Positions 26,401 to 43,309 of a DNA stretch of 64,000 nt are shown here, piece after piece; within the stretch, counting starts at the first letter, position 1, and every line of letters begins with the position of its first letter. The notes beneath the pieces were generated by a model. The model was given only the letters and a program-made list of their open reading frames with translations. It ran no database searches and was not told the origin of the DNA. The position numbers were made by a program, and so were the translations under genes. The stretch is from Arabidopsis thaliana (Eukaryota; Streptophyta; Magnoliopsida; Brassicales; Brassicaceae). The stretch is from assembly GCF_000001735.4 (NCBI RefSeq), contig NC_003076.8:20959835-21023834 (forward strand), written 5' to 3'.

Positions 26401-29400
26401 GAGAGCGACTACGATTTCATTCACAGGTATGATATTCTCTCGTAGAGATGATTTTGTGTTCTTGTGTTTTAAAGAACTGAAGCACTGATTAGTATGAATT
26501 CAATCTGTTAAAATTTTTGGTTTTTCTGAATCAATTTCGTTCATTTCATGCTATCACTTTTCAGCTGTGCGACGGATCAATTGCGGCCTTTACTGTTCTT
26601 CACAATGTGAATTGCAATCACGGGTTCATATATGTCACAGCACAGGTTTAATAATTTTTCTACACGTCATTTCTGTTGTTGCTTTTGCTATTCTTATTAT
26701 TGTAGCATCTTGACTATCAATTTCGTTGACAAGATGGTTCATATTCATTTATATCAGGGAGTTTTGAAGATTTGCCAATTACCTTCAGCATCAATCTATG
26801 ATAATTATTGGCCAGTGCAGAAGGTAAATTCCAGTTTTTTTAATCATCTTTGCTTACTGTTGATTAGATGGAAAATAATAAGTGTACAAGGACTGATCAC
26901 GTTGATACCTATATTTTTGTCTAGATTCCTCTAAAGGCCACACCTCACCAAGTTACTTACTACGCGGAGAAGAACTTGTACCCGCTGATAGTATCATATC
27001 CGGTGAGTGCATTAGCATGATAATATACTCTAAATTGGTCTACCTGATCCGAATTGCATCTCTTTGGTTGCCTTCAATAAATTTGGAACTCTTTTGTGGT
27101 TGAGATGGCAACTGTGTTGCCCCAGCTCCCCGTTTTCCTTTTTAGCTATCGTGATTTTTATCCTTAATTCATATTATCAAATTTACCCTTTGCAAATTTA
27201 TTCAACTGGATGCCTCTCTGAATTTCTTTCATGAATATCACAGATTCCTGATTTTGTTTTTTTTGGCTGCAGCAATATTAATAGATCATACTTGTTTGTT
27301 TTGTTTCATAGATAAACACCTAAACTAATGCAATGTTTGCATGCTTATTTAGCCATTTTCTTTTTGTTGAGAAGAAAGAAAGTTTTGTGCCAGTTATGTA
27401 ATACCTGTCTATATATTTGATCCGCATCATTTGATATTTGATTATTCTATCTTACTAACACAAGCAATGTCATTTCTTTCTCCTTTTGAAGGTCAGCAAG
27501 CCGTTAAATCAAGTTCTTTCTTCACTAGTTGATCAAGAAGCTGGCCAGCAGCTTGACAACCACAATATGAGCTCAGATGATCTCCAACGGACATACACCG
27601 TAGAGGAATTTGAAATTCAAATTTTGGAACCAGAAAGATCTGGTGGCCCCTGGGAAACTAAAGCCAAAATCCCAATGCAGACCTCAGAACATGCACTGAC
27701 TGTGCGAGTTGTCACGCTTCTGGTAAGTTAGCTACTAACCCGCCTAATGTCATATTTGGATCAGATCTCTCTGTTTTAATTGCAATAACCAAGCCACATT
27801 CTCTTACTCCCTGGGGTGTTTCAGAATGCAAGCACAGGGGAGAATGAAACACTTCTTGCTGTTGGGACTGCGTATGTCCAAGGGGAGGATGTTGCTGCAA
27901 GGGGCCGTGTGCTTCTTTTCTCTTTTGGAAAAAATGGCGACAATTCTCAAAACGTGGTATGTTTAATTGGGTTCTACAACCTGGGGAATCTTTTTCTTTC
28001 TTTTCATTTTCACCTTGGATGTTCGATTTATTGTGAAGCCACTTTTCTATAGGTTACTGAAGTCTACTCAAGGGAGCTAAAAGGTGCTATATCAGCTGTA
28101 GCCTCCATTCAGGGTCATCTTCTAATATCATCTGGTCCTAAAATCATCTTGCACAAATGGAATGGCACCGAATTAAATGGTGTTGCCTTCTTTGATGCTC
28201 CGCCGCTCTATGTAGTCAGCATGAATGTTGTACGTTTTACTTCCTTGGCCAGATTGCCTAGTGCTGTGTTGGTTTTATGAGCTAACTTTACTAAACTGAC
28301 CTGTCTTGGCTCTGAGGACAGTTTTCTTTTACGTGATCTGGCTTTGTAAATTCTTCTTTACTTGCAGGTTAAGAGTTTCATCCTTCTTGGTGATGTTCAC
28401 AAAAGCATATACTTTCTTAGCTGGAAGGAACAAGGGTCCCAACTTAGCTTACTAGCCAAAGATTTTGAATCCCTTGATTGTTTTGCTACAGAGTTCTTGA
28501 TTGATGGAAGTACGCTTAGCCTGGCTGTCTCCGATGAACAAAAGAATATCCAGGTTAGCATCCTCTTATCGCCTTTAGTGTGTACTTGATGGGGTCAGGC
28601 CTTACTTATATGTACCGATCCCCAACAGATATTATATTATATTCCCAAAAAGGATGTCGAAGTTAGCAACTTAGCACTTCTCTTATCGCATATAGTGTTT
28701 ACGTGGTGAGATCAGGCCTTACTTATACAGTTATATGTAGAAGATGGATTATTGTGAAAATACCTCAACTCTTAAATTGACTTGGTACTGATCCCCAACA
28801 GGTATTTTATTATGCACCAAAGATGATTGAGAGCTGGAAGGGTCTGAAACTTCTTTCAAGGGCGGAATTTCACGTTGGTGCCCATGTGTCAAAGTTCCTA
28901 CGTCTGCAGATGGTTTCTTCTGGAGCAGATAAAATAAATCGATTTGCTTTGTTATTTGGTACTCTAGACGGCAGTTTTGGTTGCATTGCTCCACTGGATG
29001 AGGTCACATTCCGGAGGTTACAGTCTCTCCAGAAAAAGCTAGTGGATGCTGTTCCTCATGTTGCGGGTCTGAACCCACTCGCTTTCCGTCAATTTCGCTC
29101 AAGTGGGAAGGCTCGACGATCTGGGCCTGACAGCATAGTTGACTGCGAGTTACTATGCCAGTAAGTTTTCTTCCGCATTCTATATGTTCAAACGGTAGTA
29201 ACAGACATATGACAAAATGGACCTCAAAGTAGAGAGAGCACATAGGATAATAAACTCGAAAATCACACGATAGAAGGATCATAGATGCATATCCTCATGG
29301 TTTTGAAAACATTTTGCAGTTACGAGATGCTTCCATTGGAGGAACAGCTTGAACTTGCTCACCAGATTGGGACAACCCGATATTCGATTCTCAAGGATTT

Positions 29401-41538: not shown

Positions 41539-43309
41539 TCAGACCGCCGGATCAGGGCTGCTGCTATGCCATCCTTTAGTGCAAGGAGGTATTTCCATGA
41601 ACTCGTCGAACTCCTTCACGTGAACATCGCAACATTTCCACTACACAAAGAAAACAGTGATATTCAATAGAAATTCAAACAGTGAAAGAAAAGGGTCACA
41701 AAATGATTGAACAAAGAACGTGTTACCCCTCTCAGTCTGTCGTGGAAGACCGCAGGACCTGGATGATGGCTACATGCAGTCTCATGATTGTCTCTCTCTT
41801 TGAATGTTTGGCCACATCCTTTGTTTTTGCAGACTTGCGGTTGATTAATGTCTATCACAGCCTTTTGTACTGGAGGCGCTAAGGGTTCAATTTTTTCTTC
41901 TTCTGCTTGTCCCGGTGTGTTCAGGGTCTGCTTGATCTGTTCTTTGGGTTGGGATCCTGTGTGGTAAAGAAGGACACAAAATTAGATAGAAGGTCATGCA
42001 TGTAACCAATGTGCAACGAGAATTTAAAGACGAGAGAATAAAGATACAAACCATGGTCTGAGCAGAAGAAGCCTTGCCGGCATCTGGAGCAAGAGTCTTT
42101 TGTTGCTGCATTGGCATCTGGAGATGAAGTAGGAGCCGCAACAGGATGTTTTGGAACCGATTTGGCCAGAACTGGTTTCTCAGTTGTGTGTTTACCTGTT
42201 TTACATCTTCATTGCAAGAAACATCTTCAGTGTTTGCAATCAACTACAATATGTACCATGAAAGACAGAGGAATTATTATGAGGGGGTACAAGGATATTA
42301 GTTACCCTGGAATTTCCAAGAACAAACTGAAATCATGACTTCTTTGCTTGCAGCAGCTCCACTCTTTCATTCCGTCGTGAAAAAATGGCTGCAAGTTTGA
42401 ACTTTGGTAGCTTTAATTCTCTGAGCAAGCGAGTGTGAAACAAAAAAAAAAACATAAAACAGTATTTGAAGAGTAAATTTGACTTACTCCCTGCTTGAAC
42501 AAAAACCAGTAGTCAGTGCAAAGACCAGCCCCAGCCACACCGGAAAAAGAAAAGATAATAAAAGAAGATGAATTACAATAAAAAGCTCAAAGCAATAGAT
42601 GAATATGAAAGAAACACTAGTATACAAGGCCAAATGTTAAGATGAATATTGAGATAAAGCCTTCTTTCTATACACAATTGTTCTAATTACACTTCCAGGG
42701 ACAGTCTTAACGAGCTCTCTCCCTCACATAGCCATAACCGGTGGCAAAAGTTGGAAGCAAACAATTCAAAAGTCGCTGCATGTACGTACACTCTCCCTCA
42801 CATAGCCATAAACGGTGGCAAAAGATCTAATACTTGGATTATTCAATTTTACGCAATATACTTTTGCTTTCTTCCATCAAGTGTTCTAATAAGCTCACAG
42901 TCTCACAGAATTCATAGGTTGCAAGCAAACAACTTAGTTAAAATTTGACAATTAGACAATCAAAGCTGTGTTCAAAGCTTACTTACTTACAACTAAATGA
43001 AATCTACATGTAATCAATCAGCTAATCCAAAACCTAATTAAACACTTGCGTAATCATCTTCTCATGATCAAAAATCGAAATTCGTAACCTCACATCATAA
43101 AATCAAATTCAAAAGCTACTCTATGGGTTTATCAGAAACTATCGAAGACTTAGAAAAGAAAGAGAAGAATCGATTAAAGATGGGGAGAGAAGAAGACGTA
43201 CGGAAGCATGAAATTGACAAGAACCTTGAGGATTGTCGTCATCGGTGAACATGGCGTTGCAGCCAATACGTTGGCACTGAAGCTTCTTCGTTGCAGATCC
43301 TACTTCCAT
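41539..43309 (-). CDS. RAR1: RAR1 (PBS2), CHORD-domain co-chaperone for NLR receptors
   Basis: RAR1 binds SGT1 and HSP90 and stabilises NLR immune receptors. I read six minus-strand coding exons: 43309-43202, a 3-nt exon 42490-42488, then 42388-42306, 42206-42052, 41956-41727 and 41640-41539. They sum to 681 nt, or 226 residues. CHORD-I spans residues about 12-71 and CHORD-II about 159-218; each has the six Cys and two His zinc ligands. The plant-specific CCCH motif ([15 protein letters not shown]) lies between them. Without the 3-nt exon the junction would read HAS-PFFHDG, missing the conserved Gly of SGPxFH; the microexon GGA restores it. Intron 1 is large (about 900 bp with the microexon) and also holds a 34-bp direct repeat. 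Confidence 0.96.
42488..42490 (-). other. RAR1: Three-nucleotide microexon of RAR1 (GGA, Gly)
   Basis: On the minus strand the sequence is gttcaagcag|GGA|gtaagtc. It has a good acceptor preceded by a T-rich tract and a branch-point-like ctgact, and a near-perfect donor. Inserting GGA between exon 1 (ending TCC) and the next coding exon (starting CCA) gives S-G-P, the CHORD consensus, and brings the protein to 226 residues. Frame alone cannot reveal it, because three bases leave the phase unchanged. Confidence 0.85.
42717..42824. repeat. 34-bp direct repeat in RAR1 intron 1
   Basis: The copies at 42717-42750 and 42791-42824 read ctctccctcacatagccata, then acggtggcaaaag or ccggtggcaaaag. They differ at one base in 34 and are spaced 74 bp start to start. 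The spacing sequence is not repeated. Confidence 0.9.

Follow-up and report, generated by a model that had tools for sequence, protein, structure and literature searches.

RAR1 is a plant immunity gene, and it lies on the minus strand of the 64,000-nucleotide stretch of Arabidopsis thaliana DNA analysed here (the window). Two of its coding exons are separated by an 813-nt interval. Does that interval hold a further coding exon of only 3 nt? A preliminary description had claimed that joining the two exons directly leaves the protein one residue short, and translation bore this out: the direct join gives 225 aa (HASPFFHDG at the junction), versus 226 aa (HASGPFFHDG) when a GGA from within the interval is included. 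The coordinates and flanks claimed for this GGA were exact, at 42490-42488 in the 813-nt interval, between TTCAAGCAG and GTAAGT. With exon boundaries marked by slashes, the minus strand reads TTTTTGTTCAAGCAG/GGA/GTAAGTCA. The observation of a GGA microexon is confirmed. The interval resolves into a 711-nt intron, 3 nt and a 99-nt intron, and the gene into six coding exons of 108, 3, 83, 155, 230 and 102 nt that encode 226 residues (Table 1). By sequence, RAR1 exon 2 fits the class of plant coding microexons, being internal, between 1 and 15 nt long, preceded by AG and followed by GT (CAG/GGA/GTAAGT).

Table 1. Coding exons of RAR1 and the two introns flanking the microexon (positions in the window).
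Feature	Position	Strand	Details
RAR1 exon 1, coding part	43202..43309	-	108 nt; ATG at 43309; 3' end CAT GCT TCC (HAS)
RAR1 intron 1	42491..43201	-	711 nt; GTACGT...AAGCAG
RAR1 exon 2, microexon GGA	42488..42490	-	3 nt; Gly codon (37); flanking introns both in phase 0; 3-bp exon reported in excerpts of PMC8430224
RAR1 intron 2	42389..42487	-	99 nt; GTAAGT...TTGCAG
RAR1 exon 3	42306..42388	-	83 nt; 5' end CCA TTT TTT CAC (PFFH)
RAR1 exon 4	42052..42206	-	155 nt
RAR1 exon 5	41727..41956	-	230 nt; contains first part of CHORD-II
RAR1 exon 6, coding part	41539..41640	-	102 nt including TGA stop

The gene was identified as RAR1 by residues 149-221 of its product, which are identical to structure-database chain 2xcm_E (molecule RAR1), a chain covering CHORD-II only. 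The protein carries two CHORD domains (Pfam PF04968, 159.9 bits over 2 stretches), and a CHORD search of the whole assembly (7 contigs, 119,662,809 bases) returned 3 matches, all within RAR1. A pattern search for relatives of the protein gave 34 matches in prokaryote genome contigs and 3 in viral contigs, none of which was confirmed, as expected for a plant gene.

Alternative ways of reaching a 226-aa protein, the only target of the search, were enumerated. An extra exon of 1 to 30 nt was allowed between GT donors at most 30 nt from the end of exon 1 and acceptors no more than 40 nt upstream or 20 nt downstream of the exon 3 start; GGA alone yielded the 226-aa product. Single-intron joins were sought over donors (GT or GC) lying at most 30 nt upstream or 60 nt downstream of the exon 1 end and over AG acceptors at least 70 nt inside the interval and at most 30 nt beyond the exon 3 start; none yielded the 226-aa protein. 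Since the 226-aa target was supplied by the model, these joins show that GGA is the unique solution and not that the GGA exon exists.

The splice-site context was then compared with chance. There are seven AG/NNN/GT sites in the 813-nt interval, one of which encodes glycine. When the interval was dinucleotide-shuffled 5000 times, 6.1% of the shuffles contained one or more AG/GGN/GT sites, so a bare match would be weak. The fuller composite YAG/NNN/GTRAGT appeared in 1.8% of the same number of shuffles, and YAG/GGN/GTRAGT in 0.02% (1 of 5000). The bare 12-mer CAGGGAGTAAGT occurs three times genome-wide, versus four times for its reversed control, and the string by itself is therefore not special. 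A crude splice-site matrix placed the RAR1 GGA site second among the 414 AG/NNN/GT sites of the window, both strands counted. The sole site scoring above it was TGCAG/AAG/GTAAAT at 26821 on the plus strand. The preliminary description had called the sites on both sides of GGA strong; by the same crude matrix this applies to the acceptor, the best of RAR1's five, but not to the donor, which ranks third of five. The acceptor forms a tandem NAGNAG (AAGCAG, 42491-42496, minus strand).

Whether such an exon had been described before was a question left by the preliminary description, and it has: the RAR1 microexon is an already known feature, not a new one. Excerpts of a 2021 paper on peanut (PMC8430224), which cites Shirasu et al. 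1999, give the second exon of AhRAR1 as 3 bp, like that of Arabidopsis RAR1, and count 6 exons and 5 introns in AhRAR1-A as well as in AtRAR1. Gene, exon number, exon size and exon-intron count are the same as ours, and the excerpted text description shows no difference from it. Within the literature searched, partly in excerpt, the 3-bp exon was found in this paper only. RAR1, AT5G51700 and CHORD are absent from the main text of PMC8831610, RAR1 and CHORD from that of PMC12409088 (MEPDB), and RAR1 and AT5G51700 from that of PMC10808074. In the excerpts of PMC8430224, the gene-structure figure gives 5 exons for cultivated and 7 for wild peanut, and different splicing or wrong assembly is suggested for the 7-exon model. 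A grape survey lists at most 4 introns in every family, RAR1 included (excerpt of PMC8556916), versus 5 in Arabidopsis RAR1. In grape the microexon may have been overlooked, or the gene may truly differ; the grape count and the third-ranked donor both speak against our preferred reading.

The contribution of the extra codon to the protein was assessed against solved CHORD structures. The first 76 residues of RAR1, with the glycine, align without a gap to both matched structure-database CHORD chains, 2yrt_A and 2xcm_E, while the 75-residue version without it shows a one-residue gap at the microexon position in both. The score differences are modest (70.8 versus 67.4 bits, and a small drop from 48.4 to 47.5 bits); the Pfam CHORD score is 85.3 bits with the glycine and 80.2 without. 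Judged against the two solved chains matched, CHORD-I with the microexon has the family length. The residue itself is another matter. In the ungapped alignments the microexon glycine lies opposite Val in 2yrt_A and opposite Pro in RAR1 CHORD-II (2xcm_E), and the glycine of HPG in both lies opposite the Ser that precedes it. The conserved feature is the spacing H-x6-H and not the residue; the equivalent CHORD-II loop, HPGPAVFH, has the same six residues between its histidines and is encoded unbroken in exon 5. As had been claimed, the microexon does supply one glycine (codon 37) to CHORD-I, a zinc-binding domain, but not a conserved CHORD glycine. SGPxFH likewise fails as a general CHORD pattern because the two solved CHORDs have Val or Pro at the glycine column, and the glycine, proposed to sit next to a zinc ligand, lies three residues after H34 and four before H41, adjoining neither. 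With Val or Pro opposite the glycine, what the microexon gives is loop length between His34 and His41 and not a conserved glycine. The GGA codon would keep CHORD-I at family length, with six residues between the two histidines, and a residue at this position is probably needed.

Together, these results suggest that GGA is exon 2 of RAR1, a 3-nt coding microexon in print that is very probably included in nearly every transcript, with its flanking introns removed in turn. Two spliceosomal complexes cannot occupy 3 nt simultaneously. There being no room for both, introns 1 and 2 would each be recognised as an intron and probably excised sequentially. As to order, we lean, as a guess, toward intron 2 (99 nt, with its GTAAGT donor) being spliced before intron 1. 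Its removal would fuse GGA with exon 3 into an 86-nt exon of ordinary size, and the CAG before GGA, RAR1's best-scoring acceptor, would then serve as the acceptor of that exon as intron 1 is removed. Excerpts of PMC8831610 report 69 constitutive Arabidopsis microexons, of which 16 showed downstream-only splicing intermediates with none upstream-only and 4 the reverse; among the remaining 49, 32 had more reads for downstream splicing.

The intronic signals were compared with those described for plant microexons. The excerpted text of PMC8831610 gives a T-rich rule of more than 80% T, and RAR1 intron 2 satisfies it, with four overlapping 20-nt windows of 17 T each. Intron 1 has one CTGAC branch-point-like site, its A lying 22 nt before the microexon. 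Other signals are less favourable to the proposed mechanism: intron 2 has no CTRAY branch-point-like site and contains four additional AGs at distances of 13-32 nt upstream of its acceptor, the most T-rich 20-nt window of intron 1, with 16 T, falls short of the T-rich rule, and no G-rich window was found in either intron.

Among other readings, the one that survives best is a regulated switch, in which the microexon is skipped in some tissues or upon immune activation, so that a 225-aa RAR1 is made whose CHORD-I loop is shorter and whose HSP90 binding is altered. The exon is 3 nt and in frame, hence skipping would preserve the reading frame; the exon-1 donor scores lowest of RAR1's five by the crude matrix; and excerpts of PMC2940742 name CHORD-I as the part of RAR1 that binds HSP90. 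Against this, a literature search on RAR1 CHORD alternative splicing gave no RAR1 case, its one match concerning yeast exonucleases, judging by the title, and excerpts of PMC8831610 put PSI above 0.5 for most coding plant microexons. We consider such a switch very unlikely. A shade less probable still is use, at least sometimes, of the first AG of the tandem acceptor, whereby exon 2 would grow to 6 nt (CAGGGA) and the protein to 227 aa, reading HASQGPFFH with Gln-Gly in place of Gly. An AG is indeed present 3 nt upstream of the microexon acceptor, but the resulting loop would be one residue longer than in both solved CHORD chains, which align gaplessly with the 226-aa form, and exon 2 is given as 3 bp in both reports, Arabidopsis and peanut, in the excerpts of PMC8430224. 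It is similarly far-fetched, if conceivable, that conditions govern whether the 3-nt exon is included or the neighbouring AAG acceptor used, and that a CHORD-I residue in this way tunes RAR1-HSP90 binding and, with it, immune receptor stability. That there is no microexon, exon 1 being joined straight to exon 3 and GGA falling between splice-like sites by chance, has almost no probability: the outer splice sites are both canonical, the direct join is in frame and the genome shows no excess of the bare 12-mer, but the 3-bp exon is published for Arabidopsis and peanut RAR1 (excerpts of PMC8430224), the direct join opens a one-residue gap against both solved chains, and the composite site turned up in just 0.02% of shuffled intervals.

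A system close to the RAR1 microexon is the 1-nt exon of Arabidopsis APC11 (excerpts of PMC4674806), likewise an ultra-short coding exon flanked by two introns. That exon was found through a mismatch between cDNA and genome, and sequential intron removal was proposed for it. It differs from RAR1 exon 2 in that skipping 1 nt shifts the frame, and mutations in APC11 were tested in protoplasts. The conserved plant microexon clusters (excerpts of PMC8831610; MEPDB, PMC12409088) share with it the shortness, internal position and coding role of the exons and an abundance of intronic signals, although RAR1 and CHORD are unnamed in the main texts of both. The microexon of Drosophila homothorax is also 3 nt, but it is reported in excerpts of PMC7392893 to be alternatively spliced with isoform-specific functions, unlike the probably constitutive RAR1 exon.

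The RAR1 microexon leaves existing knowledge of the gene unchanged. It is a clean example of an exon invisible to frame checks: the peanut gene models had 5 or 7 exons, versus 6 after cloning (excerpts of PMC8430224). Annotation software could usefully be tested on exon 2, which also bears on the splicing of exons below exon-definition size. Intron 1 also contains a 41-nt direct repeat (42710-42750 and 42784-42824), its copies 90% identical with 74 nt between their starts.
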